Origin: Erigeron canadensis
Taxonomy: Eukaryota; Streptophyta; Magnoliopsida; Asterales; Asteraceae
NCBI RefSeq assembly: GCF_010389155.1
Contig: NC_057769.1
Coordinates: forward strand, 19,840,735 to 19,904,734
DNA length: 64,000 bases
Direction: 5' to 3'
Shown here: positions 12,476-63,605 of the stretch, one piece after another
Position numbering within the stretch: the first letter of the stretch is position 1
Layout: the number at the start of each line of letters is the position of its first letter
The notes under the pieces: model-generated
What the model saw: the letters and a program-made list of their open reading frames with translations, nothing else
Databases searched by the model: none
Told to the model about the DNA's origin: nothing
Program-made: the position numbers and the translations under genes

Positions 12476-12753
12476 ATATTTGAAATATGAGGAATTGAAC
12501 GCCTTTGTGTACTTTACTATTCTCAAATATCGTGTACTTATATGATTCTACTGTATTTTCAAAGTTATATATATATTTCTATATATAAAAATATAAGGAA
12601 TTGAACGCCTTTGTGTACTTCCTTACTATGTTTATATATGGAAATATGTATCTAACTATTCTGTGTTTTTTTTTCTCATATCAAGTTATTTGTATGGAAT
12701 ACACTGAGTTTATCGCCTTTGTGAACCTCTTTGTATTTTAGATAAATCACTTG
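12476..12753 (+). ncRNA. three candidate stem-loops with conserved loop GAACGCCTTTGTG in element D
   Basis: Hairpin 1: arms ATATTTGA (12476-12483) and TCAAATAT (12523-12530), core 12497-12512. Hairpin 2: arms ATATATAAA...AAGGAA (12581-12600) and TTCCTT...TTTATATAT (12619-12639), core 12603-12618. Hairpin 3: arms CAAGTTATTT (12682-12691) and AAATCACTTG (12744-12753), variant core TATCGCCTTTGTGAAC. The loop core is conserved while stems differ in sequence yet still pair. Related units occur in elements B, C and E. A structural RNA role is inferred. Confidence 0.55.
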
Positions 12754-12837
12754 TATGAAACTTGTTATTTGCTATTCAAACATTACTTTATGTGTACGTT
12801 AAACTGTTTTATATCTTAAAATCAGAAAAATTAAAAA

Positions 12838-15800
12838 ATGGAACATCAAGATCAAGTTGAACATGATGAAGAGATTGCTCTAAATGCATCCATTGAAGAA
12901 ATTCTTGTTGCTGGAAACTCAAAGAACATGAGAAACAATAGAGCTCTATCTGATCCATTTGTTGCTCCGGGATTCCTAATTGTCCCGAGAATTTTTCACA
13001 ATCATCCACTCTCATATGTTCTTACTGTCGAAAGAGACTTGCCTGAAGTTTATCAGTTTGAGATGTGGAGAACCATAAGCTTTGTTCAGCCTCAAGATCC
13101 ATCTTCTTCAAGATCAAAACCTAAACATAAATCTCCCGAACTTCGCCATCAAGGGTTCTTCCAATATCAAATGAGCTCTGGAGATAGAATATATGACTTT
13201 GAGTTCAATCTTGATGACTTCAGAAGAACTTTGATGCTTCCTAAAGCTAATTCTAATGGACATGCTAATTTTGATGAGTTTGAGTCCAATGATATAATCT
13301 TTGCTGCATTAATCTCACTTGGGTATGAAGGTCCTTTGACCAAGACTAGAGACTTCAAGCTGAAGAATCTACCCAAGATCTGGTATTATGTATACTCTAT
13401 CCTCAGCAACTGCTTGACTCCGTATACAAGAGGGATGGATAATCTGACTCAGCCTATGCTGCATATCTTTTATGTTCTTATCTTTGATAGACATTACGAC
13501 ATTGCTCAACTTCTGTGGGACCAATTGATAGTATTGGTTAATGGAAAAATCTCAGCTCCCAAGAAGTATATTCCATTTATCAGATTTCTGACAGTAATTA
13601 TCTATGCTGCGGTCAGACATGAGAAAAGCATTCCAAGACTTCATGATGATACAAAAGTTACACTCCAACAGTACAAGTATGTTAGAGACTCTGGAATTAC
13701 AAGATATACATACTTAATTCCATCACATTTGCTGGATTTGGTTTCTGAGTCTAATGATGATTTGAAAGCTTACCTGGACTGGATTAGAACAACTCTGGGA
13801 CCAGAAAGCCTCCCGGTTCTTGCCGAAGTTGTGCATAGGACACCAAGTGAGGGGTCTAAGAGGAAAAGAAAAGAGAGTGAGGGTGCATCCAGTTCCAGTG
13901 AGCCTAAGAGAAGAAAGATTGTGAAAAACCAAAGATTTGTGTTGAAACTTAATCAACAAGTGTTTCAAAGAAAGAAGAAGGGGAGTTCGTCAAAGAAATT
14001 GAAAAGAAAAACTCCAGCTGAACCTTCTTCACCAGCATCTTCTGAGGAGACAATTTCTGTTAATGGGTCTCCAAAACCAATCAGATCTCCACCTCCTAAA
14101 ACAACTACTTTGAGATCATCTTCATCACCCAAAACACCGTCACCTCAAAGATCATCATCTCCATCTTCTCCCAAATCACCTAAAACACCTCAAACACCTA
14201 TTCATCAATCTTCACCACTTCCCGAAATCATTTCACCAATACCACCAACAATGGAACAAACTCAACCTCAAACCGTTGTATCACAAATTCATTCATCATC
14301 ATCATTTCCTTGATCTCCTCCACCTACATATTTTCAAGGCTGAATGAAATCAATTCCTGTTAATATCCGCAAAACATTCAAAAGATCTCGTTTTGAATAT
14401 GATCGATTTCAAACAACTGAACAAGAAGATGCAAATGATTCAAGTATTGGTGAATCAGATTCTGATGATGCAAATATGTTTGCAGATGATGTCATGGACA
14501 TCCCAGAGGGACAAGGAGGAAATGAGGGAGGGGTTGAAAATACCAGAGAGGATGAGAGGTCAGGGCTAGGTGAAAGGCAAAAAGAAAACATTGGCCTCCA
14601 TTTAGTTACAAACGTTTTTCAACGCCGGGTTCGCCCTAGGATAGAAGCCGAGAGCTCCCAACTCTCGCAAGGTCAAACCTCCGCTATCCATTCGGAATTC
14701 TCTCAACAGACTGACGTCTCATTAATGCACGAGCAAAATCCACGTACTCCATTCCATTCTCCTTCAGAGTGTGTGAATGTTGAAACACAAGACACATTTG
14801 CTCCTCTCTTGGACTTCATTTCTGCACGATTGTCTAGTACCCCACTTAGGACACCTTTTGCACCTATTGTGATCCCATATGCACATCTAGGTGATGTTGC
14901 CGGAACAAACATAGAGAGATCGACTATTGTGCCCTCTCGAGGATTGTTTGGAAGTCCTTCCATTGCTAACGTCACGCCAGCTTTGAACGAAGGCGCCTTA
15001 GTAGCTAGATTAGCTGTGCGACAGTCTGAGTTCCTTCGAGCTCAATCAGCTGCGTCAGCTCTTCGTGCTTTAGGCTTAACAATAAGTCTAAGTGACTCCG
15101 GAGTTATTCACCTTCATTTCCCAAAAGATTCTGGTTGTGAAGCCGAATCATCAACTGTTGTTCATACTTTTGAACCAACAGGAAATCCTGAGACAGTAAT
15201 GATGTCTTCGGGTCACTCAGTAGAATCACTTGAGACTACTGATGTGCCAGATTCTGCTATTCCATTACCGATTGAAGCACAAATGTTGATATCTCAGTTT
15301 GTTGGAGGAATTGAAGAAGGTCAAAGAAGTGAATTGCTTGTTTCTAGAAATATCTTAACCGGAAAACTTCCTGCCACCGAATCAAGTTCACCATCACCAA
15401 GATTGCTTACTGGAGGTGCTTTACGTATTGGTACTCCAGTAGCATCTTCATTACCACCCTGTGTAACACCAACAACAACAATCCAAACAACAACAACAAT
15501 TCCATCATCACCAATTCAAACAACACCGATAATTCCAACTATTCCACCAACAACAACACCAACACCAATTACTCAATCATTTCCCGATCCTAGTTCACCG
15601 CATCATTCTTCCAGTTCTTCTTCCGACTCATCTAGTTCTGCCGAATATTTAAGTGATTGCTCACCGAGACGAATTGCCACCAGTGGTCTATCAACCGATA
15701 CTCTCATTGTTGCCCTCATGAATCGGTTGAGATCCGAAGAACCACATCTCACTTCCCATAAACGATCAATCTTTCAATCACTCCTTGCATACATGTCATT

Positions 15801-17580
15801 TCAAGCTACACAACAAGAGAATAGAGCTGAAGTTGAAGCTCTTCAGAAGAGAATCCGTGAACTTGACCAACAATGTCGACTGGCCGATATCTCCAGAAGT
15901 CGGGATGATCAAGATCCTGATTATCAACCCGAGAGGGAGAATATAAGAGATATCGGAGAGGGTCATGAAACTCAAGAACAAAGTGGTCAAGAACAAACTG
16001 TTCAAATTGTGATTCAAGATCAAACAAATCAAAATCAAGATCAAATACAAGCTCAAGCTTCTTCAACTCATGTTCATGAATCGGATTCAGATGATCTACC
16101 CCCACTTGTCAGACATATTTCACACTATTATTCCACAACTTCAAGTTCTGATGAGTCAAGTGATCGTGATCCATTTCAACCTGAAGATGATGAGTCTAAT
16201 TCATCTGATTCTGATGATCCTGATAATGCTCAAAGAAGTGAACAATCTTAGCAAGAAACATATGGAAAAGACATCTTTGAAGAGATTGTCTATCATCTGA
16301 AAAACCCAGAAAATCTTGAGACTCCTAGTGAGCTTGCACAAGGAGTCAAACATCCAAGAATTTCAAGAAGTAGAATTTGGCAGATTAATGAGGGTTATTT
16401 CACTGAGAACTATGAGCAGATCTTGGATTTAAGTACCAAGCCTGAAGAGATTGTGTGCAAAGCAAGATATCTTGAAGAAAGAGCTTTTCAGATTTATTGC
16501 ACGCTAGATGAAAGATTAAACATGACATTGAATCATTTGAAAGCATTCTTTTTGTTCAGACATAAAGATCAAAGAGATGCGTACATGGAGTTGATGAATG
16601 CTGTAAGTTCTGTGAGAGAAGAATGGTGGTATAGGCAGTTTGAAAGACCAATCACAAGAGTGCTAGAGTTGTTTGTTCCCTTGGTAACTCACAACATAAG
16701 ACTTGTTCGATTCAAAGTTCGCAGAGCAGATTGTTGTATGTATGTTGTTCAAGAAGAATCTTTCCAACACTTGAAGATCTCAGACATCCTGTTCCTCTAC
16801 AATCAATATGCATATTTGATTATCAAGACTCCTGATCAACTTCAAGCCTATAAAGCATTGAAAAGCCACATTCAAGCCTTAATCAGATTTTATGAATTCA
16901 ATGACTTTCAGATCGGCTTAGAAAGAAGAACTAGCAGGATTAACCTCACAAAACCAAATCAAAGAGCTGGAGGTTATGAGCTAGATTCATTTCAAATTGG
17001 AGATGTGATTGAAGACTTGGATGGGTTTGTCTTCATTAACCGTTTAAAGAGAAAGATCTTCATTCGTGCTTCAGATTTTCCCATGTACTCTGATGGTACT
17101 TTGAACTATTGCTTGTCCATTCTAAGTGCATTGAATGAAGATTCTGATGATGAAAAAGATGATCACATCAAGTCTCAGAGAGGAAATCATATAAGACGTA
17201 TCAAAGCTGTTCTTGAGATGCGTCAAAGAATAAGAGATCTTATTGTTGAAAGGACTCCCAAGGCTCAAGAAGGAGTAAGACATACTGAGACAGGCTCATG
17301 GGTTCTTTGGAATCCTAGTCACAAACATGGTCCTCATAACATTCCACCAGTGAATTTCCAAGACAACATTCGATTGCCAGATGAACGTCCTGAAGGTGAT
17401 AACTGGCATTTCATTCCAAAGAAGTATTGGAAAGACACTTGGAATAGTTATAAGAAAAGAGCCTTCTGGAACTCAAAGATTGACAAGCCTACAACATCAA
17501 CTGCTGCTCAAAGTTATAAGAAGAGAAAGAACAAGCAAAGGAGAGCAAGCATGAGGAGAAGATATCAAAGGAAGAGATAA
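12838..17580 (+). pseudogene. giant ORF3 of element D, one frame with three stop codons
   Basis: A single frame of about 1580 codons interrupted only by TGA at 14311, TGA at 14341 and TAG at 16249. The N-terminal 300 residues share the ORF3 domain seen in A, B and C (F.F..DDFRRTL.LP, then LPKIWYYV...L..CL, then ML.IFYVL...YDIAQ). Next come a bipartite basic stretch (KRKRK...PKRRK, about residues 341-360), an S/T-P-rich region (about 415-460), long Ser/Thr/Gln- and Asp/Glu-rich low-complexity sequence, and a C-terminal helical domain (GLERRTSRINLTKP...YSDGTL) ending in a very basic tail. No membrane segment. The stop 29 bases before the PPT fits retention of the whole frame. Function unknown. 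Confidence 0.7.
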
Positions 17581-17608
17581 TGGACAACCAAGCTCACAAC
17601 CAAGCACT

Positions 17609-17619
17609 AAGGGGGAGAA
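17609..17619 (+). other. polypurine tract of element D
   Basis: AAGGGGGAGAA directly precedes the 3' LTR at 17620, as expected for plus-strand DNA priming. Confidence 0.9.
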
Positions 17620-17909
17620 TGTTAGAAATATAAATAGTGCTTAGTTGTAGTTAAAAATAATGTATGTTTATGTGCTTATTGTAAGGTTGAGGGGGAGCTT
17701 TTGTAAGTTTTCTTAGAGTATAAATACCCCTTAAACCTTCTTTCCTTGTAACCTGTTAACTCATTTCCCACACATTTTACATATTGAATGTAATCAGATC
17801 ATTCCACACACACACCTTTCTCTCTCAAGAACACATACTAACACACACATTCCACCATTGTTGAATATCTTACTTACGCATCAAAACACGAATCAATTAC
17901 AGTTTTACA
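17620..17909 (+). repeat. 3' LTR of element D
   Basis: 290 bp, same ends as the 5' LTR, with TATA box around 17719. About nine substitutions separate it from 6481-6770. It is followed by CACTT, the target-site duplication. Confidence 0.95.
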
Positions 17910-21860: not shown

Positions 21861-21916
21861 AGGGGGAGATTGTTGAGTCATGGATTCGTTGACCAGACTT
21901 GCTCGCCGACGTGTGT
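21861..21916 (+). repeat. polypurine tract and first 46 bp of the 3' LTR of element A
   Basis: AGGGGGAGAT (21861-21870) is followed by TGTTGAGTCATGG, the LTR start. Element B is inserted 46 bases into this LTR, with TSD TGTGT at 21912-21916. The LTR continues after 29089. Confidence 0.75.
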
Positions 21917-22895
21917 TTTTAGGTCCAGATTTACTGGACTCGCTCCAGATGTGACTACTGGAGCCCTCTGAAGATTTGTCCAGAAATTATGTGAAGACCA
22001 GTGAACAACTTACTTGTACAGGAATCTGGATTCCACCAGATTTGTTCACTGGACTACACTCCAGTCAAGATCCTTCCACTGAAGAACATTCTCACTAAAG
22101 TTGAAGACTGAAGTCTGAAGAAAGAAGTCTAACATATAGCGGAGCTCACTGGCAGGCTTACCAGATCTCCTGACTGGAGTCCTTGACAGTATTCTAGACC
22201 TTATAAGTCTGAACACTGATTACGAGGAATTGACTTTATGCCTTTACATGCTTTTACCCGGACAATCCATTTGTCCTTTGTTAAAAGCCTTACACGCATG
22301 TAAAGGTGGTTGGTTAATCAGAAGACAAGTCACTATCAAGTGACTTTATTCTTGTACTTTAATCAATGCATTTAAGAAATTAAAGTAATTTCCTTAAATG
22401 CATGTAACCATATTTGTACGGCAAAAAGAATATCATATTTATTCTTTTTGCCTATAAATATCAAGTCACTTCCTTCGTCCAAATTACACTTTTGCAATTT
22501 GGTGCTTTTGCTCAAATACTCTCGATCTAAACAGTTATACTTCACAACTTTAAGTATTTCGATCAAGGAGTTTATTTAGCAATATTAGATCACTTGTAAT
22601 TCATTGTTTATTTAGATACTTACTTTGTAATATCTTGTTCCGCAACAACCTTGTATGTTATTTAACATCAATAAATAAAATACACTTGAAAATTACATTG
22701 TGTCTCTACTTGCTTATCTTTATATTGTTTAAGTACGTATTACTTTATATATATTCTTGCATTTATATTTATTGTAATACTAGTCCAATCTAGTGCTTAC
22801 TTGACTTGTCTCATTCATACTAGTCTTATCTAGTGCTTACTTGACTTGTTGCATTCTACACTTGTGGGTTAAACCATCAAATGAGGGACTTCACA
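21917..22895 (+). repeat. 5' LTR of element B
   Basis: Matches 28095-29084. TATA box CCTATAAATA at 22451-22460. A roughly 40-bp internal direct duplication with ACTAGTC...TCTAGTGCTTACTTGAC lies at 22780-22856. Ends in TTCACA just before the PBS. Confidence 0.93.
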
Positions 22896-22896
22896 A

Positions 22897-22915
22897 TTGG
22901 TATCAAAGCAGAAGG
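22897..22915 (+). other. primer-binding site of element B
   Basis: TTGGTATCAAAGCAGAAGG resembles the initiator tRNA-Met PBS (TGGTATCAGAGC) with one change, one base after the LTR. Confidence 0.85.
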
Positions 22916-22947: not shown

Positions 22948-23301
22948 ATGGCCAACCCAGAGAATGACCCAAGCTGGGTGATAGCTATGCAAGAAGAGCT
23001 TCACCAGTTCGAACGAAACAAAGTTTGGAATCTGGTTCCTCCTCCAGTTGGCAAGAAAGAACCAATTGGAACCAGATGGGTCTTCAGAAATTAGGTTGAT
23101 GAAGATGGACACTTGATAAGAAATAAGGCCAGATTAGTGGCACAAGGATACGTCCAAACAGATCTTGACTTTGAAGAATCATTTGCACCAGTAGCAAGGC
23201 TAGAAGCCATCAGAATATTTTTAGCCTTTGCTGCTCATCATAAGTTCAAGGTCTACCAGATGGACGTAAAGAGTGCATTTCTGAATGGAACCTTGTTATG
23301 A
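22948..23301 (+). pseudogene. pol: RT N-terminal remnant in element B
   Basis: Starts MANPENDPSW and carries the first third of copia RT: IGTRWVFRN, then TAG, then [22 protein letters not shown] and [12 protein letters not shown]. It ends abruptly at the deletion junction with TGA at 23299-23301. Everything from gag to integrase upstream and from the RT catalytic box to RNase H downstream is deleted. The following bases match the sequence just after the RNase H stop in element C, which places the right breakpoint near the end of pol. Confidence 0.88.
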
Positions 23302-23407
23302 ACGCCTTTGTGACACTGGCAGGGCTCTTCGATTTCAGATTTATAAATCTATACCAGTAAAGCTATCAAACGCCTTTGTGATACTATCTTTACACTGATA
23401 GATTTAT
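23293..23407 (+). ncRNA. candidate stem-loops with conserved GAACGCCTTTGTG loop in element B
   Basis: Copy 1 core TGAACGCCTTTGTGACAC is at 23299-23316; its left arm was lost in the pol deletion. Copy 2 forms a long hairpin: ATAAATCTAT (23343-23352) with ATAGATTTAT (23398-23407), CAGT with ACTG, AAAG with CTTT, and TATCA with TGATA closing the loop AACGCCTTTG (approx. 23369-23378). DNA from 23408 to 24080 is AT-rich without a gene. Confidence 0.6.
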
Positions 23408-24080
23408 GGATCACCATTCCAGGGGGAAAGACTCAGACCACATTTTTTTTTATATATATCTAAGTTTCAAAGGGAATTTATAAATTTATTTTCTCACTGG
23501 GCAAATTTTTCTGGAAAATGTTTCTAGTACCTTGTAAATGTGTCCCTCTCATTAATATTAGATAAGTTGATGTGCATGTTTGAAGTGACTTCAGTCACTT
23601 TGTAAATGTGTCCCTCTCATTTGTTTATATTAGTTGATGTGCGTGTTTGAGGATAACCAAAATGGTCTAATCTGGGTACGTACTGGAGTGTACCTCCAGT
23701 GTACCATCAGTGCATATTCTACTAGCCTAATCCACCAGTGAAACTGGAATGTCCAGTCCACCTCCAGATGCATTGAAATGAGTCTTTGTGTGTCAAGTCA
23801 TAATATTTTAATACTTGATGCTAGTGCGTGCCATCCATACAAACTTTTTATCTGGACAGTTACTGTTCACATTACGTGGCATGACTTTTTCAACTTAAAA
23901 TGATGGTTTTGTTACCTTGGGAAGACAAAAAGTGCAAGTTGGTAATTTTTGTGGGCTGTCAACCGTCATATATTTATGTGTGATGGGAAACATTAAATGC
24001 GGACGTCAAAACCAATCAAAACTGTTTTGAATTTTTTGTTTTTCAAACTTACCTTTTTGAATTCCATAATGTCTTTCCTC

Positions 24081-24259
24081 TATAAATACCCATACTTATA
24101 TCACTTTTCAGTTTTATCTCGAAAATCATTTACTCCCAAATCTTCAAAATTCCTTCATTTATTTCCTTCTTCATTTACTCTCCAATCATCATCATCTCTC
24201 TTCTTAAATTTTTTCCTTATCAATTTTAAATTCTTTCAGTTTCATCTTCATAAATCTCA
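24081..24259 (+). promoter_or_regulatory. candidate internal TATA promoter and leader of ORF3 in element B
   Basis: CTCTATAAATACCC, a canonical plant TATA box at 24081-24088, lies 179 bases before the ORF3 ATG. It is followed by a pyrimidine-rich leader with repeated TCATC and TCTTC. The same arrangement is found in element C (minus strand). This would let ORF3 be transcribed without the LTR. Confidence 0.5.
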
Positions 24260-27200
24260 ATGGCTCCCAAACCATCTCCTAAAAATCTTCTATCTGCTAA
24301 TTATGCTCCCTTAGACAATGTTAAAAAGGCCAATCACATCTCTCTCTCTGTCGACGCCATCAGAATCAATATGAATAATTGGATGGCCAAACTCTCAACA
24401 AATCATTCGGCAACATCCATTATAGGAAGGTTAAATACCTTTTTCTTGAGCAGTCCTTTATATGGTGCCCTAACCTTGAATCCGGGCAAGATGTACCACG
24501 ACTATTTATGTGAGTTTTGGTACACTGCCGTGTATGTGGAAAGTGATGAATCCATCCACTACACACTTAAACAAGGCACGAAGAGTTTCACCATTACCGT
24601 TGATTCTCTCAGAGATGCCCTGAGAATGAACTACTTTGATGAGAATGAGATGCCCATTGAAATTCCTTCTGGCATCAATACCAGGGAAGTATGCAGGCTG
24701 ATGGGGCATACTGAAATTGTAATATGAATGGACAACTGCTCAGGAAGGGAACTGTATATATGAGCAGGCTAACTGACTCTTGGAGATATTTTTTCACTCA
24801 TCTTGTTGAATGCTTGGGTGGCCTTTCTGGAGGCTTAGATCAGATAAACCAGACGCAGCTCCAGATTGCCTACTGTTTATGGCATGGATATAGGGTGGAT
24901 TTTGCCCAAATTTTCTTTAATGATCTGGTGGACAGATTGAAGGTCAAGAGCAGAAAGCCTTCATTCCCTTCATTCGTTTTTTGTCTATTATATTCAGAAG
25001 GGCTTTGAAAAATGAGTATTCTGTAAATACAACTCATTTTTCATTATGTGAATATCTGAGGGATCTCAACCAGTTGACCTCATCTCCTACTGAGGTTGAC
25101 ATTCCATCGGTGATGTTGTATCAATTCAGAATACAAGAAGAAGAAGAAGAAGCAAATGCATCATCACAAGATGAAGAGGCTGTAGGTGAGCCTCAAAGCA
25201 ATGAAGAAACCATTGAAGTTGTTACTGCTGAAAGGGTGCTACCCATTACTCAAGTAGCCCCTAATCTCACCAGACCAAGGAATAGAACTCGTCGTTTTTA
25301 GGAGAGACAGAGTTTTGGTGTCATCTCTTCCAGAATCTTCTCAACTGGATTCTGGAGATCTTGATCAGGGAATTGCCCAAGCAACCACTTCCACAGCTCT
25401 TGTAGAAGGAAGTGGTGAAGAAGAAAGAGGGTCTGGCTCACCTCTAATTATACAGTCTCAAATTATGGAAGTGGGGACATCATGGCTGCTGATGGGTCAT
25501 TAATTGTTGAAGGAGTTGAGGGGGAACAAGCTGAGCAGATTGGAAGAGAGAATCTGGAGCAAGGTGCTCAGATTGACTTGAACAAAGTGGTTGAGAATGT
25601 ACAAGTAGAGGACCAGGCAGGTGGAACCGGCCCAGATTGGGATATGGTTGATTCTCCACTGTCTGAAGACAATGATTTTGATGTGAACATGAGTTTTCTG
25701 GGAAAAGAAGAAGTTAATCGCACTATCCATTCTGTCTCTCAGTCAATTCTTTCAAAATTGCCTCATCCACCTCCTGTAAAATACACCAACACCTCCTCCA
25801 GAACAAACAACAACAACACCAACAATTTGTGAATCACCTTCTACACCAGAAAATCAACCCCTTCAAACTTCTGAACCACTGGTAGTAACCCAATCAACTG
25901 AAAATATCACAAGGGTGTTGCCAGTATCTTCTATCTCCAGAATCACCAATCCTTCTAGTGGTCTCTCCTCTTCTTCTTCAACCGAGGTCCAAGGCCTTTT
26001 TGATAAGGTGGCGGACCTGGAGAGATCAATCCAGTCTTCTTCTCAAGTTATTTCTGACTTCAAATCTCTAATTTCCAATAATCTTAAGTCAGAAATGTAC
26101 ATGTTTCCTGGTAATGAGAAGATGGTCTTTGAGAAGCTGGATGAACTTGTTGTGGCAACAAATAAAAACTCTGAATTTATACAAGTTGCAGTCCAGGGAA
26201 TAAAGGAGGATATGGTGACAGCTGTTCAGACTGCCATCTAAGCCGAAGTTGTTCAACCTTTGGCGAGTCTGACTGGTGAGGTTCAGAATTTGACCACCAG
26301 AATAAGCTCTCTGGAAAGCAGGCCAACTCTTGAGAAAAACTCTGTTGTCAGCACCCTCAGTGATGAAGTTTTGAGAAAGCAGGCCAACACTTCTCAGAAA
26401 TCTTCGTGATGGGTTGCTGCCTGAGGTAATGAAGATGATTGACACCCAGTTGCCTCGCCACTTTCCTCAGGATCTTGAGATTATCAAAAAGGAAGTGATG
26501 CAGTTGAGGAAAACTGTGAACAATATTGCTCCAGTGTCTGGTAGAACCTTTGATTCTGCTGACAGACATAAGCTGGACCAGGTGTGGAATCATCTTCAAT
26601 CTGGAGATGCTTCCAAGGGGGAAATTTCTGGAAAAGAAACTGCTGGTGATCTTCAAAAGAAAATTGAAGTCTGGAAGAAGGTGATTGGAAAAGATGTCAC
26701 TGGTACTGACGCCAGTGGTCAGGTTGAAGAAGAGGCTGTTGGTACTGATGCCAGTGAGCCAGTGTTCGAAGAGTTCCCAGACATCCCAACCACAATGAAA
26801 AAGATCAAGAGAAAGCAAGTGGTATCTGGTGAAGTAACTGGAGAAGCAGAAAAAGAATATGTATCTGCTGATGAGGCCAAGGCAAAAAGACTGGAGCAAG
26901 AGTGCATCATGATTGAAATTTTCAAGAAAAAGATGAAGGATGACTTGATTGCTCACCAGTTAGATATGGCCAGGCATGGGACTCTGGATTCTTATAACGC
27001 TGGCAGGTTGGGCGTTCAAATTGAAGTTTATAAAAAGAAGAAGGATGATCCCAGGCTTAAGAATGTCTGGATGCCTTGGATGATGTGTATATTCGATCCA
27101 TGTATGATCAAGATGAACAAGTTTATGATTCTGAAATCTATGGTGTAAGCATACTGGATCTCATTGTCTAGAGAAGAGAAGAATTGAAAGATCTCCAGAA

Positions 27201-28083: not shown

Positions 28084-29084
28084 ATAGGGGAATTTGTTAG
28101 GTCCAGATTTACTGGACTCGCTCCAGATATGACTACTAGAGTCCTCTGAAGATTTGTCCAGAAATTATGTGAAGACCAGTGAACAACTTACTTGTACAGG
28201 AATCTGGATTCCACTAGATTTATTCACTGGACTACACTCCAGTCAAGATCTTTCCACTGAAGAACATTCTCACTGAAGTCGAAGACTAAAGTCTGAAGAA
28301 AGAAGTCTAACATATAGCGGAACTCACTGACAGGCTTACCAGATCTCTTGACTGGAGTCCTTGACAGTATTCTAGACCTTACAAGTCTGAACACTGATTA
28401 CGAGGAATTGACTTTATGCCTTTACATGCTTTTACCCGGACAATCTATTTGTCCTTTGTTAAAAGCCTTACATGCATGTAAAGGTGGTTAGTTAATCAGA
28501 AGACAAGTCACTATCAAGTGACTTTATTCTTGTACTTTAATCAATGCATTTAAGGAATTAAAGTAATTTCCTTAAATGCATGTAACCATATTTGTACGGC
28601 AAAAAGAATATTATATTTATTCTTTTTGCCTATAAATACCAAGTCACTTCCTTCGTCCAAATTACACTTTTGCAATTTGGTGCTTTTGCTCAAATACTCT
28701 CGATCTAAACAGTTATACTTCACAACTTTAAGTATTTCGATCAAGGAGTTTATTTAGCAATATTAGATCACTTGTAATTCATAGGTTGTTTAGATACTTA
28801 CTTTGTAATATCTTGTTCCGCAACAAACTTGTATTTTATTTAACATCAATAAATAAAATACACTTGAAAATTACATTGTGTCTCACCATTCAACTTACTT
28901 GCTTATCTTTATATTGCTTAAGTACGTATTACTTTATATATATTCTTGCATTTATATTTATTGTAATACTAGTCCAATCTAGTGCTTACTTGACTTGTCG
29001 CATTCATACTAGTCCTATCTAGTGCTTACTTGACTTGTTGCATTCTACACTTGTGGGTTAAACCATCAAGTGAGGGACTTCACA
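28084..29084 (+). repeat. polypurine tract and 3' LTR of element B
   Basis: ATAGGGGAA (about 28085-28093) precedes the LTR at 28095, which runs 990 bp to TTCACA and is followed by TGTGT. TATA box near 28630. Sequence 27817-28083 is an AT-rich 3' untranslated stretch without a gene. Confidence 0.92.
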
Positions 29085-39786: not shown

Positions 39787-40223
39787 CTGTATTCACAATC
39801 CCAAAGATATACCACAAATTTTTAATTACCAAAACTCAAAAGTTGGATGATTTTTATAAATGTTGTTTTGAATTTTGAAGTAAAAATTTAATTTTCTGTG
39901 TCAGCATTAAATGCTACGACGGCTTGTATACCCACTCGCCCATTAACTTTTTACAATCCTAATAAAAAGTACATCCTTATACAATGTGGCTTTGACACGT
40001 CATATGACAGTTGTGAGTGGGTTAAAACACTCGAGTACCATCACGTGTCACAAACCAAGTATTACACAACGTTATGAAATCTGGTTGACTGCTAGTTTTA
40101 AGACAAGACTAAACATGTACACTGGAGGATTTGTCCAGTGCCAGTTTCAAACAAAAACAATTTTAGTGAGAAAAACATTTTAAGTCTATTCCCCCTAGAA
40201 TGATGACCCAGGGATCGATTAGT

Positions 40224-40338
40224 GCCAGGATAGTATCAGAAAGGTGTTCGATAGCCTGGCGAGCAAAAATCATCTGGACCTCCTTAACTGGAGAACTTCA
40301 TCAGTGTCACTAGAGCGTTCATAACAAATTCTCCAGTT
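40224..40338 (-). ncRNA. two candidate stem-loops just after the pol stop of element C
   Basis: Hairpin 1 (40286-40338) has perfect 10-base arms, AACTGGAGAA and TTCTCCAGTT, around a variant core GAACGCTCTAGTGACAC (40304-40320). Its outer arm starts immediately after the RNase H TGA (40339-40341). Hairpin 2 (40224-40260) has arms GCCAGG/CCTGGC around GAACACCTTTCTGATAC (40233-40249). Both correspond in order to the two units of element B. Confidence 0.55.
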
Positions 40339-48392: not shown

Positions 48393-49310
48393 TCAAGGAA
48401 GTTTGACATTTTTTTTTTCAATTGATGGAGACAAGGCTCCTTCCAGGTTTTTAATTCTGGCAGCGCAACTCTGAACCTGCCTAGACAAAAATTGGAGTTG
48501 ACTGTCCAGTTTTAACAAAATATCATTTTCAACTGGCAACTGAACCTTGGACCTTGGTTCAGTTTGGTTCTTTGTCTTGGGATTCTTAGGCTCCTTTGAC
48601 TTTTGAGGTAAAGGCTTTTCACCAGCAGCCTTTTTGCCTGGAGCTTTAGCCTGATTAGCTCCAGTTTTAACCTCAACAGGGGTGGTCTTTTCAGGCTCAG
48701 TCTTGACAATCTTGGGATGGTCATATGGAGTCTCAACCCTAAGATTTAAAGGTAATGCATGAAGATCTGGTATGAGTGCAACCATTTCTACATCTCCAGA
48801 TTTCCATGCATATTTCTGGGCATCAATGGTTCTTGAGAATGCATCATAATTCTTTTCAGATGCCTTTACCCACGACTTGATAATCATTTGTTCCTTTTCA
48901 AGATCAGATTTTAACTTTTGATTTTCAAGTTCCAAAACCTCATTTTTCAAAACTGACTCCATAAGAGCCAACTGGATGCTTTGCAAATCATTTAATTGGG
49001 GTTTGAAGTTGTTTAATTTAGTTAAAATTGTTTCCAGATATCTTTCACTATCAGTTCTAACAGTTTCAACAAACAATAGATTACCATTAAGTGATTCAGC
49101 AATGTCTAGTTTCAGTTCTGGGTTAACCTGGTTGTCATAATCACATACCTTTTTCAAAATGATGTCCACCCATCTACCAGCAATGACATCATCCTTCACT
49201 ATGTGTTGCTGCTGTTCTTCCAATGCCATGAAACACATATCCCTGATCTCTTCATCATCATCAGATGAATCATCAGAGAGTTTCCATTTTTCTTCAGTGT
49301 TTGCCATCAT
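48393..49310 (-). pseudogene. gag: gag C-terminal extension of element C
   Basis: A 305-codon open stretch, acidic at the start (SDDSSDDDEEI), then coiled coil (LKNEVLELENQKLKSDLEKE) and a Lys/Pro-rich part with KAPGKKAAGEKPLPQKSKEP. Such long gag extensions are typical of Sireviruses. Fragments of this stretch, including SLNG(N/D)LLFVETVRTDSE, recur three times in the tandem array at 56035-60148. The stop at 48393 separates it from protease. Confidence 0.8.
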
Positions 49311-55022: not shown

Positions 55023-55049
55023 CCTAGCAGATCAAGGAAAGTGTGTTAG

Positions 55050-55067
55050 CCTTCTGCTCTGATACCA
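55050..55067 (-). other. primer-binding site of element C
   Basis: Minus strand TGGTATCAGAGCAGAAGG matches the usual copia PBS for initiator tRNA-Met. Confidence 0.9.
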
Positions 55068-55068
55068 C

Positions 55069-56034
55069 TTATAAGTTTCAACTCATGAGATGGTACTAAC
55101 TGAAGACACCTCTATGTCAATGGTGAGATAACTTTGCAATACGTTCACTGTATCTAGACGTGACCAGTTGCAGTAAACAGTATGCCAGGTTACTGGAGGT
55201 TTACTTATTAAGGTGACAAGTTGAATAAGTAAATACAATGCAATAAAGTAAATAACTTGTAAAGTAAATTGGTGAGACAATATGTAATTTTCAAGTGTAT
55301 TTTATTTATTATGTTTAAATAAAATACAAGATTGTTGCGTAACCAAGATAATAGACAAGTGTAAATATCCTAACAAGCTATGAAATAAATTGATCTAATA
55401 CTTGGAAATTCTCTTAACAATCGAAACACTTAAAGTTGTGAAATGTTTCTTTTTACGATTGAGAGAATATTGCACAAGTTCACCAAGAATACTGCAAAGT
55501 ATGAGAATGCAAAGTTGTATTCTTGTTGTGCAAAACCCTCTATTTATAGACAAAGTTGGCATTGGGATTCCAACTTTGTCGTATGGATATGGTTGATAGC
55601 ATTTAAGAAAACTAGTTGAATTCTTTTGAAATGCTTGATAAGGTAAGTCAAGATGTTACTTTATCCAACCTGCTTTATGCACTTTTGCACTTTAATCATA
55701 GTCAAATGATATTGTCTGTATAAAGCTGCATAAAGCAAAAAGGTCTTCCTTGTAATCAGTGTAAAGCGTTGTAAAGGCTTTAAACTGATGCTCTCCAGTT
55801 TCTATCTGAATAGAATGCCAACTAGGCTTCGCTGCCATTGTTATTCTCCATCTTCCACTTGTTGTCTTCGACTCCAACTGTAATGTCTTCAGGTTTGATC
55901 AGATCTCAACTGGCGGAAGTCTTCAGTTGCGTTAGTTGTACATTGCAACTGGACTTCAGATATTTCTGGACAATTCTTCTGGTCTTCAGTTACAACTGAA
56001 GAGGCTCTAGTTTTCAGTAAAACTGGACCAAACA
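55069..56034 (-). repeat. LTR of element C (array copy 1)
   Basis: Minus strand starts TGTTTGGTCCAGTTTTACTG at 56034 and runs to the PBS, about 965 bp. TATA box CTATAAATAGAGGG near 55541-55554. The PBS-proximal 200 bp differ clearly from the other three copies, whereas from about 55400 onward it is nearly identical to them. Confidence 0.8.
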
Positions 56035-56784
56035 CTTTTTCTTTTCAGTTTTAGTTCCAGTTGGAACCTTTTGCTTTTGTTTTAAAGGGAGTTTGACAGT
56101 ATGTTTTTCATTTGAAGGAGAAGAGGCTCATTCTAGATTTTTAATTCAGGCAGTGCAACTCTAAACCTGCCTAGACAAAAGTTGGAATTGATTGTCCAGT
56201 TTTAACAAAACATCATTTTCAACAGACATCTGAACCTTGGACTTTGTTTCAGTTTGGTTCTTGGTCTTGGGATTCTTGGGCTTCTTTGACTTCTGAGGTA
56301 AAGGCTTTTCACTAACAGCCTTTTTACCTGGAGCTTTAGCCTGATTGGCTCTAGTTTTAACCTCAACAGGGGTGGTCTCTTCAGGTTCAGTTTTGACAGT
56401 CTTAGGTTGGTCATATGGGGTCTTAACCCTAAGATTTGGAGGTAATGCATGAAGATCTGGTATGAGTGCAGCCATTTGCACATCTCCAGATTTCCATGCA
56501 TTTTTCTAGGCATCAATTGTTCTTGAAAATGCATTATAATTCTTTCCTGATGCCTTTACCCATGACTTGATAATCATTTGTTCCATCTCCAGATCAGATT
56601 TTAATTTTTTATTTTCAAGTTCTAACACCTCATTTTTCAAAACTGACTCCTTAAGAGCGAACTGGATGTTTTGCAAATAATTCAACTAGGGTTTCAAGTT
56701 GTTTAATTCAGTTAAAATTGTTTCCAGATATCTTTCACTATCAGTTCTAACAGTTTCAACAAACAATAAATCACCATTTAGTGA
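56035..56784 (-). pseudogene. deleted gag fragment, array unit 1
   Basis: Homologous to the coiled-coil and Lys/Pro-rich gag extension at 48340-49100. The upstream junction fuses LTR sequence to the codons SLNGDLLFVETV. The downstream end is a purine run (GAAAAGAAAAAG on the minus strand) directly against the next LTR. Several stops are shared with the other units, for example in the Trp/Gln codons near 56150 and 56510. Confidence 0.85.
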
Positions 56785-57717
56785 TGGTACTAACTTAAGA
56801 CACCTCAATGTCGATGGTGAGATTTCTTTGCAATATATACACTGAACTGGAGACAACCAATTACAGTGAGTGTATACAAAGTTGTTAGTTTGATTACTTA
56901 AGGTGACAATAAGTAATGACAATGCAAAAACTAAATAACTTGTAAAGTAAATTGGTGAGACAATATGTAATTTTCAAGTGTACTTTATTTATTGTCTTTA
57001 AATAAAATACAAGGTTGTTGCGGAACCAAGATAATACACAAGTGTAAATATCTAACAACCTATGAAGTACAATTGATCTAATACTTGGAAATTCTCTTAA
57101 CAATCGAAACACTTAAAGTTGTGAAATGTTTCTTTTTACGATTGAGAGAATATTGCACAAGTTCACCAAGAATACTGCAAAGTATGAGAATGCAAAGTTG
57201 TATTCTTGTTGTGCAAAACCCTCTATTTATAGACAAAGTTGGCATTGGGATTCCAACTTTGTCGTATGGATATGGTTGATAGCATTTAAGAAAACTAGTT
57301 GAATTCTTTTGAAATGCTTGATAAGGTAAGTCAAGATGTTACTTTATCCAACCTGCTTTATGCACTTTTGCACTTTAATCATAGTCAAATGATATTGTCT
57401 GTATAAAGCTGCATAAAGCAAAAAGGTCTTCCTTGTAATCAGTGTAAAGCGTTGTAAAGGCTTTAAACTGATGCTCTCCAGTTTCTATCTGAATAGAATG
57501 CCAACTAGGCTTCGCTGCCATTGTTATTCTCCATCTTCCACTTGTTGTCTTCGACTCCAACTGTAATGTCTTCAGGTTTGATCAGATCTCAACTGGCGGA
57601 AGTCTTCAGTTGCGTTAGTTGTACATTGCAACTGGACTTCAGATATTTCTGGACAATTCTTCTGGTCTTCAGTTACAACTGAAGAGGCTCTAGTTTTCAG
57701 TAAAACTGGACCAAACA

Positions 57718-58467
57718 CTTTTTCTTTTCAGTTTTAGTTCCAGTTGGAACCTTTTGCTTTTGTTTTAAAGGGAGTTTGACAGTATGTTTTTCATTTGAAG
57801 GAGAAGAGGCTCATTCTAGATTTTTAATTCAGGCAGTGCAACTCTAAACCTGCCTAGACAAAAGTTGGAATTGATTGTCCAGTTTTAACAAAACATCATT
57901 TTCAACAGACATCTGAACCTTGGACTTTGTTTCAGTTTGGTTCTTGGTCTTGGGATTCTTGGGCTTCTTTGACTTCTGAGGTAAAGGCTTTTCACTAACA
58001 GCCTTTTTACCTGGAGCTTTAGCCTGATTGGCTCTAGTTTTAACCTCAACAGGGGTGGTCTCTTCAGGTTCAGTTTTGACAGTCTTAGGTTGGTCATATG
58101 GGGTCTTAACCCTAAGATTTGGAGGTAATGCATGAAGATCTGGTATGAGTGCAGCCATTTGCACATCTCCAGATTTCCATGCATTTTTCTAGGCATCAAT
58201 TGTTCTTGAAAATGCATTATAATTCTTTCTTGATGCCTTTACCCATGACTTGATAATCATTTGTTCCATCTCCAGATCAGATTTTAATTTTTTATTTTCA
58301 AGTTCTAACACCTCATTTTTCAAAACTGACTCCTTAAGAGCGAACTGGATGTTTTGCAAATAATTCAACTAGGGTTTCAAGTTGTTTAATTCAGTTAAAA
58401 TTGTTTCCAGATATCTTTCACTATCAGTTCTAACAGTTTCAACAAACAATAAATCACCATTTAGTGA
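57718..58467 (-). pseudogene. deleted gag fragment, array unit 2
   Basis: Near-identical to unit 1, with the same two junctions and the same internal stops, showing that the unit was deleted once and then multiplied. Confidence 0.85.
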
Positions 58468-59398
58468 TGGTACTAACTTAAGACACCTCAATGTCGATGG
58501 TGAGATTTCTTTGCAATATATACACTGAACTGGAGACAACCAATTACAGTGAGTGTATACAAAGTTGTTAGTTTGATTACTTAAGGTGACAATAAGTAAT
58601 GACAATGCAAAAACTAAATAACTTGTAGTAAATTGGTGAGACAATATGTAATTTTCAAGTGTACTTTATTTATTGTCTTTAAATAAAATACAAGGTTGTT
58701 GCGGAACCAAGATAATACACAAGTGTAAATATCTAACAACCTATGAAGTACAATTGATCTAATACTTGGAAATTCTCTTAACAATCGAAACACTTAAAGT
58801 TGTGAAATGTTCCTTTTTACGATTGAGAGAATATTGCACAAGTTCACCAAGAATACTGCAAAGTATGAGAATGCAAAGTTGTATTCTTGTTGTGCAAAAC
58901 CCTCTATTTATAGACAAAGTTGGCATTGGGATTCCAACTTTGTCGTATGGATATGGTTGATAGCATTTAAGAAAACTAGTTGAATTCTTTTGAAATGCTT
59001 GATAAGGTAAGTCAAGATGTTACTTTATCCAACCTGCTTTATGCACTTTTGCACTTTAATCATAGTCAAATGATATTGTCTGTATAAAGCTGCATAAAGC
59101 AAAAAGGTCTTCCTTGTAATCAGTGTAAAGCGTTGTAAAGGCTTTAAACTGATGCTCTCCAGTTTCTATCTGAATAGAATGCCAACTAGGCTTCGCTGCC
59201 ATTGTTATTCTCCATCTTCCACTTGTTGTCTTCGACTCCAACTGTAATGTCTTCAGGTTTGATCAGATCTCAACTGGCGGAAGTCTTCAGTTGCGTTAGT
59301 TGTACATTGCAACTGGACTTCAGATATTTCTGGACAATTCTTCTGGTCTTCAGTTACAACTGAAGAGGCTCTAGTTTTCAGTAAAACTGGACCAAACA

Positions 59399-60148
59399 CT
59401 TTTTCTTTTCAGTTTTAGTTCCAGTTGGAACCTTTTGCTTTTGTTTTAAAGGGAGTTTGACAGTATGTTTTTCATTTGAAGGAGAAGAGGCTCATTCTAG
59501 ATTTTTAATTCAGGCAGTGCAACTCTAAACCTGCCTAGACAAAAGTTGGAATTGATTGTCCAGTTTTAACAAAACATCATTTTCAACAGACATCTGAACC
59601 TTGGACTTTGTTTCAGTTTGGTTCTTGGTCTTGGGATTCTTGGGCTTCTTTGACTTCTGAGGTAAAGGCTTTTCACTAACAGCCTTTTTACCTGGAGCTT
59701 TAGCCTGATTGGCTCTAGTTTTAACCTCAACAGGGGTGGTCTCTTCAGGTTCAGTTTTGACAGTCTTAGGTTGGTCATATGGGGTCTTAACCCTAAGATT
59801 TGGAGGTAATGCATGAAGATCTGGTATGAGTGCAGCCATTTGCACATCTCCAGATTTCCATGCATTTTTCTAGGCATCAATTGTTCTTGAAAATGCATTA
59901 TAATTCTTTCCTGATGCCTTTACCCATGACTTGATAATCATTTGTTCCATCTCCAGATCAGATTTTAATTTTTTATTTTCAAGTTCTAACACCTCATTTT
60001 TCAAAACTGACTCCTTAAGAGCGAACTGGATGTTTTGCAAATAATTCAACTAGGGTTTCAAGTTGTTTAATTCAGTTAAAATTGTTTCCAGATATCTTTC
60101 ACTATCAGTTCTAACAGTTTCAACAAACAATAAATCACCATTTAGTGA
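59399..60148 (-). pseudogene. deleted gag fragment, array unit 3
   Basis: Near-identical to units 1 and 2. Followed upstream (higher coordinates) by a fourth LTR copy cut at 60640 by element E. Confidence 0.85.
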
Positions 60149-60640
60149 TGGTACTAACTTAAGACACCTCAATGTCGATGGTGAGATTTCTTTGCAATAT
60201 ATACACTGAACTGGAGACAACCAATTACAGTGAGTGTATACAAAGTTGTTAGTTTGATTACTTAAGGTGACAATAAGTAATGACAATGCAAAAACTAAAT
60301 AACTTGTAAAGTAAATTGGTGAGACAATATGTAATTTTCAAGTGTACTTTATTTATTGTCTTTAAATAAAATACAAGGTTGTTGCGGAACCAAGATAATA
60401 CACAAGTGTAAATATCTAACAACCTATGAAGTACAATTGATCTAATACTTGGAAATTCTCTTAACAATCGAAACACTTAAAGTTGTGAAATGTTCCTTTT
60501 TACGATTGAGAGAATATTGCACAAGTTCACCAAGAATACTGCAAAGTATGAGAATGCAAAGTTGTATTCTTGTTGTGCAAAGACCTCTATTTATAGACAA
60601 AGTTGACATTGGGATTCCAACTTTGTCGTATAGATATGGT

Positions 60641-60954
60641 TGTCATAACACGATTTCTGCACCGAATTCACGTCATCAATGGCGGATTTGAGGTTTGTAT
60701 GTTCTTGGTGTGCGTATGTGTTTTGAGAGAGAAAGTGTGTGTGATTGGAAATTGGCTGATTGGAATTAATGTGTGTTAAAAGTTTTCCAAAGGTTCTGAT
60801 TTCCAAGGTGTGAGGGGTATTTATAGTCTAAATACTCACATATGCTAAATATCACATTTAGCCCCTCAACCTTAGTGATGATTTATCTATGATTTAACTA
60901 CAAGTAAGTTCACTATTCTAAATTACATTTATCACTATTTTTGGATTTCTAATA
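60641..60954 (-). repeat. 3' LTR of element E
   Basis: 314 bp on the minus strand: starts TATTAGAAATCC (TG changed to TA) after the purine run CTAAGGGGGGGAA, TATA box ACTATAAATACCCC near 60818-60830, ends GTGTTATGACA at 60641. Related to element D's LTR in order of motifs and overall length. Confidence 0.75.
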
Positions 60955-63340
60955 TTCCCCCCCTTAGTGATATATTGTAAATGAATGAAGTACGTGTTAT
61001 GTTGTCTTGTAGGAATGAATCTGATGAGCCCGGTGGTGAAGACAATTGGTGTGTAGAAACAAGTCTTTAAAGTTTTCTCTTTTGTCTTTGGAGAACTTGA
61101 TTCAGTCTTGGTCTTGGACTTCTTGAAGTTAAATCATGTGGTGATTCTCAAGTTTTTTTTTTTAACAGAGAATAACGAGTGTGTGTGTGTCTTGAATCTT
61201 TGAAGATTGTTGAATCATGATTCAGAGTTGTCTTTGGAGATGCGGAAGGTATGAACTTGGCTTTGATTCTTCATTCTTTGATTCTTGAGTGAAATTCAAC
61301 TTTTTGAAATGAAGTTTCATGAATATGTACTCTCCCCCTTTATGTGTGCATTAGAGCTTTTTGATAATGTGTTATTGTATGACTTGAAGATCTTGAATGA
61401 AGTATGTTGATGAAGACTCTTTTGGAGCTTTACTTCTTTGACTTGAATCTTCTTAACCAATCTTTCAACTTTTTAAAGCTTCAATCTTTGTCACATCAAC
61501 TTGAACACTTTGGAGAGTAAGCATATGAATGAAGTTTGGATAAGTCTCTTATGAAGTAATCATGCTCCCCCTCAATTCATGAGTATAAACATTTTTGGAG
61601 CATCTTTGAACTTTTGTACCATCTTGAGTGAATATCCTTTCATCTTCGGTCTCATTCTTATCTTTGAAATCAATTCAGATTTTCTTTATCAAGCCAAGAT
61701 TTCAATCAATTAAGATCAAGTGAAAATCTGAGCTCAACTAAGATAACCCTTTGAAACAACCAAACACAACTTTTCTCTTTGCTGTCCTTATCAATCATTC
61801 TTATTTCTTCCCCAATCAATCATAATATTTTCTCCCCCTCATAATGACAAAGTTGGGAACCAATGTCATTATGTAGACATTGCTTGATAAAATGTCAAAA
61901 GAAATAACACTATCCAAAACTAGATTTAGTGCACATGGAGAAATGTCGACCATCGAAACATCAACCCAAACCATTAGCCCAAACCAACGAATTCTAGAGG
62001 TGACTAAAATGTAAGGTTGAAATTGTTGGTACAAACGTTATAGCATAGTGTTGTGTGTTTGTGAGATGAGAAATGAAACCGGATAAGAATGATCCGTTAG
62101 CATGTTCAAACATCTAAAGGATTAATGAAATGTATCATTTTTCGGATTTCCTATGTATCATTGAGATTTGCACAAAGCAATACTCTAATCATTTCGGTCT
62201 GCGGCTTTTCAACCACGAGATTGCTTCAAAGAATATAAATCATGGTTAGTACAACCGAAGCGTTCGATAACCACAATCTTTTATCCTTAAAGACTTTTAT
62301 GAAATAACCGAGGTCACATTTAGACTTCTCGTTAACTCAATAACCACATAAATGTAATTATGAGACCTACTTTCAACGTTGGAAAAGATGTTAGCATTGG
62401 TAGGATTTCCATTTGATCATCGTGAAATATCAATTAAGATATCACTACAAATGTTCCGGCTATATTACAAAGATAAACAATAATATCACAAAGATATGAC
62501 TCGAATGTGTCCTAAAGAAATGGATAATGATCAACTTAATGACCAATGAAGATAGCTCTAGACACAATGTGATCAAATGAAGTCGGGTACTGGAGCAGAG
62601 TGTCGCCCTTTTTCAATATCAACAACTTCCAAATGAAGAGTCAATAGAAATTTGAAAATCTCCGTAAGAATTGAAACAAGTATTTGTTAAGAAACACTTG
62701 AGTGGTTAGGTAAAGATGCGCATCGCTTCAATGGGTTAATGAAGACTTTTTCAATATCGATAATATCGAGATATCAACAAATGACATCCGATAGAAACTT
62801 GTTTTACCCGGCGATTTGAGAATTTAGGGAAGGGTATTATTTCTTTTAACCCTTTTCTCTCAACATATCACCTTAACCTGTCACTTTTCAACTTTACTTC
62901 CTCCATCCTATTTGCACAAAAACATCATCACTCAAAATACCCTCACTATCTAATGAAAGAAGTGAATACTCCGGGGTTAGAACTCATCAGCGATGATGAA
63001 ATTCATGGAGTGAATTAACCGCTCATGTGCAAACTAATCACCGAACTTCAATTGATTGAAAATCATTTGAATATCATCAAACGTTTGTAGAAAATGTTTA
63101 AAATATATTTGAAGTTTTGGGAGTTTTTGAAATCACAAACTCCTCCTTAATCTATGCAAGAATAGATCAAAATGTTTTCCATAGAAAGGTGGAGCAAAAA
63201 TCGGTTTTTGTGAAATCAAAAAGAGTAAAATCTTTTTTGTGATATTTTCAGAAAACTTGAGAGTCTATTGTGAACAAGATTTTTCAATTGAGAAGCACAC
63301 AGTTTTGCTTCAACAACAATGTTCATAGTACGACTGCTAG
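60955..63340 (-). other. non-coding 3' spacer of element E with multiple polypurine tracts
   Basis: I see no open frame of note. Minus-strand AGGGGGAG-type purine tracts occur at about 61332, 61565 and 61832, and the terminal one at 60957-60966. Repeated polypurine tracts are known in Sireviruses. No ORF3 domain could be recognised here. Confidence 0.55.
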
Positions 63341-63605
63341 GGAGTACAACAAGGCTTTCAATCCGTCACATCTTACATCAACAAGTTGGAGGCAATAAAA
63401 CAGTTAAGTAAACTTTAACTCAATCAATTGTTCAAAATGAGACAACTAGGGAGTACACAAAGGCGTTCGATCCTTCACTTCTCATATCAACAATTGAGAG
63501 TTTGAAAAACTTTATTTGAAAGCAATTAACTGCTATTACACATACATATTCATATAAGACTACTTGGAAGTACACAAAGGCGTTCGATTCCTTGTTGTCT
63601 TATAT
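63341..63605 (-). ncRNA. three candidate stem-loops with conserved GAACGCCTTTGTG loop in element E
   Basis: Unit 1: core 63570-63585 (GAACGCCTTTGTGTAC on the minus strand), arms ATATAAGAC (63552-63560) and GTCTTATAT (63597-63605). Unit 2: core 63453-63468, arms TCAATTG...ATGAGA (63424-63442) and TCTCAT...CAATTGA (63480-63497). Unit 3 (63341-63375) is degenerate (GAAAGCCTTGTTGTAC). They lie about 110 bases apart, 3' of pol, as in element D. Confidence 0.58.

Follow-up and report, generated by a model that had tools for sequence, protein, structure and literature searches.

Sireviruses fill large parts of many plant genomes, and we know of no packaging or selection signal that has been described for a Sirevirus. 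Outside this group, the packaging stem-loops of retroviruses and the bulged stem-loop of yeast L-A are short, bulged structures with a conserved tip, often arranged in tandem and read by the capsid protein. The non-coding regions of Sireviruses do contain repeated motif (RM) boxes, described in the main text of the original report as palindromic sequences (Bousios et al., 2010; PMC2829016). A CGG-CCG core is present in 12 of the 13 listed there, and the boxes, which for the most part show good conservation within an element, are abundant in the long terminal repeats (LTRs), too. In maize Sireviruses, the palindromic, microRNA-like regions share a motif that is the palindrome CACCGGACNNNGTCCGGTG and is linked to small RNAs, according to the text devoted to them (PMC10760457). 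Finally, for the plant copia pair BARE1/BARE2, the account in PMC3735527 is of a parasite that lacks a gene, keeps the packaging signals and is packaged in trans. Here we analyse 64 kb of the Erigeron canadensis genome (contig NC_057769.1, positions 19,840,735 to 19,904,734; hereafter, the window), which contains five Ty1/copia retroelements with Sirevirus-like features, denoted A to E. Elements B, C, D and E carry tandem hairpins with variable arms and a near-constant 13-base core, GAACGCCTTTGTG, and we consider it highly probable (roughly 0.93) that these hairpins are a structured sense-strand RNA element. In the literature searched (main texts, leaving aside supplements and subscription papers), there was no recognisable description of such hairpins, and the exact core string was absent.

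The core is found exactly at 12497, 12603 and 23300 on the plus strand and at 63585 and 63468 on the minus strand, with one mismatch at 23368 (plus), with two at 12711 (plus; D3) and 40249 (minus; C2), and with three at 40320 (C1) and 63359 (E3), both on the minus strand. Six matches to the core with at most one mismatch thus compare with 0.06 expected in the window. An earlier note on this DNA had listed ten core sites and six inverted-arm stems; the sites agree with ours to within 4 bases, taking its minus-strand positions as the low end, and all six stems were found, with folds that reach beyond them. Upon folding, the core caps hairpins of ~65–98 nt:

12460–12546, plus strand: hairpin D1, core at 12497–12509.
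12563–12656, plus strand: hairpin D2, core at 12603–12615, ~40 paired positions per arm.
12675–12758, plus strand: hairpin D3, variant core TATCGCCTTTGTGAAC at 12711, with U-A in place of the apical A-U.
23286–23335, plus strand: hairpin B1, core at 23300, inner stem retained and outer left arm deleted.
23338–23412, plus strand: hairpin B2, core AAACGCCTTTGTG at 23368.
40281–40345, minus strand: hairpin C1, variant core at 40320, left arm including the pol stop codon.
40202–40282, minus strand: hairpin C2, variant core at 40249, inner stem GCCAGG/CCTGGC.
63530–63627, minus strand: hairpin E1, core at 63585.
63424–63497, minus strand: hairpin E2, core at 63468.
63314–63388, minus strand: hairpin E3, degenerate core at 63359.

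The outer left arm of B1 is missing because the deletion that removed pol from B ends there; the inner left-arm sequence TGGAACCTTGTTAT, common to other copies of the same type, is retained. The location given in the earlier note also holds: the hairpins lie 3' of pol in B, C and E (D has no pol), and ORF3 follows in B, C and D; none was found for E. No Rfam family reaches its gathering score across the whole window.

One line of evidence for selected structure is that each arm pairs better with its own partner. For the ten window copies, with 36-nt flanks, the mean energy of own-arm duplexes is −22.5 kcal/mol versus −9.6 for swapped arms, and none of 20,000 permutations was as low; relative to random window sites, the combined tail probability is 3.6e-10 with the ten copies taken as independent. 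To these we added a genomic sample of 66 clusters, the first listed on one contig rather than a random draw, each with at least one exact core, ignoring core matches at or beyond locus position 2000. Copies from 60 of the 66 clusters together with those of the window (140 in total) formed 20 groups by arm identity. The preference for the own arm persisted among the 20 group representatives (−20.3 versus −11.3 with foreign arms) and among 34 copies of less than 85% identity (−20.9 versus −11.4), with 0 of 20,000 permutations as low in either set. Pairing is also centred on the core: across 16 representatives, mean flank pairing weakens from −20.2 at the core to −16.4 and −18.4 when displaced by 4 nt in one or the other direction, and is about −8 for offsets of 36–56 nt. 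This curve omits L066.1 and L066.2, in which a deletion joins two hairpins, and two window representatives, all of which were kept in the swap test.

Comparison of individual hairpins reveals changes that preserve pairing. The most distinct case is that of two D-family copies (L044.1 and L065.2), in which 16 of 32 pairs are the same, 11 carry double changes and still pair, three are changed on one side and two are broken. The right arms of B2 and C2 align without gaps up to the polypurine tract, and the two hairpins differ by four double changes, three of which fall in a six-pair stem, GTAAAG/CTTTAC in B2 versus GCCAGG/CCTGGC in C2. Over all comparisons at 50–85% identity, each counted in both directions, 735 of 1307 pairs with both positions changed still pair, compared with 4050 of 10294 (39%) for non-partner columns.

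The core is abundant in the genome and strictly oriented. In 426,212,758 bases, there are 2,651 exact copies (1,347 on the plus and 1,304 on the minus strand), whereas the reversed string is not found at all. Among named proteins, those most similar (79 and 89% identity) come from Erigeron canadensis. Homology to pol lies upstream of the cores in 50 of the 66 sampled clusters, ORF3 of the B, C or D type lies downstream in 27, and one or the other is present in 62, so that the confinement to the pol-ORF3 spacer, which the earlier note had proposed as a check, is borne out in 62 of 66 clusters. All 100 exact cores in the sample are in the sense orientation and none is antisense; no pol or ORF3 match in these clusters is antisense or on the wrong side of the cores. 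Among 20 control stretches taken at round coordinates, one of which (L115) overlaps a sampled locus (L094), none contains the core; three have pol matches, one of them weak (~26–30% identity), and one of the three also matches ORF3. Taken together, the swap test, the core-centred pairing, the double changes and the restriction to the sense strand support well the suggestion in the earlier note of an RNA selected for structure.

Several observations weigh against this conclusion. When 90-nt windows on both strands (4,262 in total) were scanned by z-score, D2 (rank 17) was the only core hairpin to reach the top 60 in the sense orientation, and other regions of D as well as the A/B LTR fold more strongly by this measure than most of the core hairpins. 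In only 8 of the 20 and 11 of the 34 representatives does the own arm rank first among all partners. When the B2 fold is imposed on C2, 9 of 33 pairs are broken, seven of which lie in the outer region, with its uncertain left-arm alignment, and the excess of retained pairing at 50–85% identity is moderate. Tree-based covariation is too scarce to carry the argument, because members of one family are nearly the same in sequence and separate families have diverged beyond alignment. Two events were counted within families versus 0.08 expected, and two in the grouped test versus 0.24; neither the grouped test nor the first alignment included B1. Across the ten window copies, the apical helix taken by itself has no more covariation than shuffled alignments (255 of 500), since the sequence there hardly varies.

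A mutational explanation was considered as a rival. Template switching during reverse transcription is known to repair imperfect palindromes, and pairing in the arms could be kept by such repair, the core then being a relic of shared descent. These elements are indeed rich in other inverted repeats, several of which are stronger by z-score. Repair of this kind, however, does not account for a near-fixed 13-base tip shared between elements whose spacers align poorly, nor for the presence of two or three copies at one place, the bulge and the conserved G-U pair, and we regard it as very improbable. Coding constraint on the linkers was considered as well and is thought unlikely because they contain stops in all three frames.

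Given that an alignment with long arms misplaced C1, the tip was analysed in gapless core alignments of 43 nt. In the six D and E copies, these contain two helices (columns 9–12 with 31–34 and 17–20 with 25–28), in which 87.5% of the 48 cells pair (a level reached by 21 of 500 shuffles), compared with 31–56% when the helices are slid; three pairs show double changes (39 of 500 shuffles) and the covariation score is 0.342 (5 of 500). In the B and C copies, a different inner helix adjoins the tip. Among D-type tips in the genomic sample, counting only those with an intact CGC-CTTT-GTG (n = 20), the next pair is A-T in 11, T-A in nine and mismatched in none, whereas B/C-type tips have A-A at this position. 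The U-A form, GATCGCCTTTGTGAAC, occurs in 292 exact genomic copies, and its reversed control in none. Kissing or long-range pairing of the tip was set aside, there being no Watson-Crick complement of at least 8 nt, G-U pairs disallowed, in the stretches of D, E and C searched. Nor do GAACGCCTTTGTG and the CUUU tetraloop form a self-complementary loop such as that of retroviral-type dimer initiation.

With regard to function, the positions of the hairpins relative to the coding regions are informative. The features concerned are as follows:

63844–63999, minus strand: C-terminal end of E pol, 67% identical to A pol over 52 amino acids, upstream of E1.
40345–41554, minus strand: end of C pol (reverse transcriptase to RNase H), with the stop codon at the base of C1.
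8080–10412, plus strand: D gag region in three reading-frame pieces, not followed by pol.
12838–14313, plus strand: first part of D ORF3, starting 80 nt after D3.
24254–24730, plus strand: N-terminal part of B ORF3, ~840 nt after B2.
39036–39629, minus strand: N-terminal part of C ORF3, ~570 nt after C2.

Three layouts recur in the genomic sample. The B/C type has two cores 68–71 nt apart (16 loci), and pol homology, where found, stops 2–46 nt before the first. The D type, recognised by its ORF3 in 11 of the 66 clusters, has two or three cores 103–111 nt apart, and ORF3 homology begins 126–397 nt after the last core found. In the E type, cores are mostly 108–129 nt apart, with some gaps of 145–188, and pol homology, where found, ends 221–695 nt before the first core. 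The strand, the spacer and the tip are constant, whereas the distances to the pol stop and to ORF3, the presence of pol (D) and that of a recognised ORF3 (E) vary, a pattern that a cis-acting mark fits better than termination or control of ORF3.

The spacing of the B/C type, together with C1, which spans the pol stop codon, would suit a stability element akin to that of Rous sarcoma virus, in which a host protein attracted by the hairpins would protect the long 3' region from nonsense-mediated decay. The far larger distances in E-type copies do not suit it, nor do the three hairpins that D, devoid of pol, retains ~2 kb after gag, and element A of the same host has no core; such a role therefore appears unlikely.

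Control of ORF3 expression, for instance by reinitiation or by ribosome shunting over the hairpins, was among the roles suggested in the earlier note and is not favoured here. The hairpins do precede ORF3 in B, C and D, by only 80 nt in the case of D3, but the distance in the window ranges from about 80 to about 850 nt. Moreover, within the ~1.1–1.4 kb following the last core, an ATG-started frame of at least 80 codons is present in only one of 39 loci without an ORF3 match, as opposed to 23 of 27 with a match. Three E-type copies followed for up to 5.1 kb further have no ORF3 match, although two of them have downstream frames of 103–614 codons, the longest of which, gag-like, is 82% identical to D gag over 273 amino acids; a strongly diverged ORF3 may be present. 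We therefore consider ORF3 control rather improbable. Readthrough of the C pol stop into ORF3 was also thought unlikely because ORF3 begins ~700 nt after that stop.

Of the roles considered, we tentatively favour, at somewhat less than even odds, a packaging or genome-selection signal in cis that is read by Gag. Under this scheme, each retroelement RNA would carry bulged stem-loops, two or three in number, in the spacer that follows pol, and the part recognised would be the tip, consisting of a 5' bulge ending in GAA, a helix of three or four pairs (CGC/GUG, with the conserved G-U) and the CUUU tetraloop. The long stems would need only to present the tip and could, accordingly, drift in sequence provided that pairing is retained. 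An element protein, most likely Gag, would bind the tip and tag the full-length RNA for packaging, and the pol-less D family, which retains gag and the hairpins, could be copied by enzymes of E-type elements, which share its Gag lineage and hairpin subtype. We infer all four components of this scheme, namely, the fold in RNA, protein binding to the tip, Gag as the binder and packaging as the outcome.

The D family bears on this role. None of the 11 D-type clusters has pol in the stretch sampled, and in each of three D-type copies followed 7.1 kb further upstream, D gag is present and no match to the pol, integrase or protease queries was found. The hairpins are thus kept in copies that would depend on the proteins of another element, as expected of a packaging signal. 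The E gag is 61% identical to D gag over 141 amino acids, with further pieces at 40–71%, whereas the gag of A and the presumed gag of C have no BLAST match to those of D and E. This shared Gag ancestry, along with the common hairpin subtype of D and E, suits recognition by Gag, and E would be the element that mobilises D copies. The earlier note had proposed a trans-acting signal that allows B and D to use the proteins of other elements; a cis signal surviving in the pol-less D family agrees with this, whereas the single damaged copy of B is insufficient by itself, and D is the better case for trans-use. Here, the parallel with BARE is incomplete in that, as described in PMC3735527, BARE2 cannot make Gag, whereas D lacks pol, and its packaging is putative. 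Likewise, the core hairpins have the bulged, tandem form of the retroviral and L-A stem-loops, yet differ from them in sequence, host and position, and their binding by a protein is a prediction.

Two considerations argue against this role, and a third concerns which Gag would read the tip. First, retroviral packaging signals usually reside in the 5' leader. Second, the tip of B and C is the same as that of D and E even though the presumed C Gag has no BLAST similarity to those of D and E, which agrees poorly with strict co-evolution of Gag and tip. Third, A, C, E and L020 (a contig discussed below) have a zinc-knuckle pattern, which was not found in B, D, L021, L099 or L100–L102; judging from the sequence, the D Gag may thus be devoid of the usual RNA-binding motif, which speaks against D's own Gag as the reader of the tip.

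The hairpins might instead be a form of the Sirevirus RM, acting as a regulatory box at the level of DNA or giving rise to small RNAs. The likeness is considerable: both are repeated and dyad-symmetric, are located just 5' of an envelope-like gene and differ in sequence between elements, as far as RM boxes are characterised in the text of PMC2829016, where they also cluster at this position; the core hairpins do so in B, C and D if ORF3 is taken as that gene. Furthermore, palindromic LTR regions of maize Sireviruses attract small RNAs and, similar to the core hairpins, are strong hairpins in non-coding DNA, although the text of PMC10760457 that treats them does not describe a conserved loop with free stems. 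In the core hairpins, however, the stem varies even within one element and the conserved part is the tip, which is not palindromic; CGG-CCG matches occur elsewhere in the window and do not coincide with the hairpins. Cores are confined to the sense strand, and the matches of a model (R1) at E < 0.01 in the window are the ten linker copies only, with none in the LTRs delimited (A/B and D); the next-best match (E = 0.028) is at 25892–25936 on the minus strand, inside B. In addition, D has a separate family of palindromic boxes, GACGATCTT..AAGATCGTC, on the plus strand in its 5' leader (7258–7696) and between gag and the hairpins (11444–12360), the latter region including the strongest local fold of the window (11651–11740). 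These boxes resemble the RM boxes of PMC2829016 in symmetry and place, without CGG-CCG, so that RM-like boxes and core hairpins occur side by side in D. Accordingly, we hold the RM explanation to be distinctly unlikely.

Hairpins without the core occupy the equivalent position in other elements. One such array is in element A:

5299–5700, plus strand: hairpin array after A pol, a 106-nt tandem repeat without the core.

Between copies of this repeat, one stem changes from ATAGAGA/TCTCTAT to ATAGGG/CCCTAT, the changes matching. Searches outside the plant genome yielded no Sirevirus relatives in viral contigs by tblastn and three loci in a bacterial genome collection. Two of these, L020 and L021, from the Labilibacter sediminis assembly, encode a Sirevirus-like pol (58 and 57% identical to that of A), are 70% identical to each other at the DNA level and most likely derive from contaminating DNA of another plant, whereas the third, L022, is a distant copia element. 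The core is absent from the spacers that follow pol in L020 and L021, but these spacers (from 6438 and 3368, respectively) repeat CCCTAGAA followed by a small hairpin, e.g., GCATGC-TGCT-GTATGT. The string CCCT[AG]GA occurs four times in the spacer of L020 and twice in that of L021, but neither upstream in the contigs nor on the other strand, and the CCCTAGAA motif is the only similarity found between the two spacers (32 nt at 97% and 52 nt at 85%). Model R1 yielded at best E = 0.017 on these three loci, on the minus strand, which was not accepted as a copy. Similarly, 19 IMG/VR loci that match the core with open positions were attributed to chance by their context, their GC content being 0.43–0.59 versus 0.37 for the window, with no primer-site string.

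These few elements suggest one layout with lineage-specific tips. By extension, Sireviruses might carry a lineage-specific RNA address, formed by bulged hairpins arrayed in tandem between pol and ORF3, the tip of which would be recognised by the Gag of the same element. The tip would be GAA-CGC-CUUU-GUG in one group, of the kind CCCUAGAA-GCAUGC-UGCU-GUAUGU in elements of another plant and of a third form in A. The D copies, sharing the address of E, would then travel on E machinery, and the address, placed 3' of pol, would be free to move. We consider this extension possible but, on balance, doubtful.

The make-up of the five elements is as follows. Element A, on the plus strand, has pol to 5273, an ORF3 split by the inserted D element and a 3' LTR from ~21871. 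Element D spans 6481–17909; its LTR copies measure 290 bp, its primer site is at 6776, and it has pieces of gag and ORF3 from 12838; no pol was found. Element B starts at an LTR common to A and has lost most of gag-pol; this single LTR (21861–22911) is the apparent 3' end of A and 5' end of B, a hint that A and B have recombined. Inverted repeats of several kinds, which differ in their arms, lie in the A/B LTR at 22327–22502 and 28505–28680. Element C, on the minus strand, has its pol end at 40345 and ORF3 at 39629, and the gag at 49310 is presumed to belong to it across a gap between 47930 and 43467. Element E, also on the minus strand, enters from beyond the right end of the window, with pol homology ending near 63844; L124, the neighbouring stretch of the genome, contains the gag, integrase and reverse transcriptase of E. 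Identity to A pol is ~61% for C and 63–67% for E, compared with 33% for the distant copia L022. No Pfam family scored above the cut-off on ORF3 and gag. Among A, B and D, which were delimited, the Sirevirus attachment tract, AGGGGGAG followed by AT/TG, is present in A at 21861, has AA in place of AT in D and is shortened in B. The primer region, for which the Sirevirus pattern is CA/ATTGG followed by TATCAGAGC, reads CA ATTGG TATCAAAGC in B and CA TGTAG TATCAGAGC in D, the two elements examined. Finally, 55089–60642 is a head-to-tail array of mostly near-identical ~1.68-kb units, several of which include a segment that matches the gag-like frame at 48393–49310 with 78% identity.

With thousands of copies of the tip and a natural pol-less family, the question of how a retroelement RNA is chosen for copying is open to a direct test of binding or of the RNA within particles. 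If the proposed role is true, the tip would offer a way of matching non-autonomous elements to the partners on which they depend.

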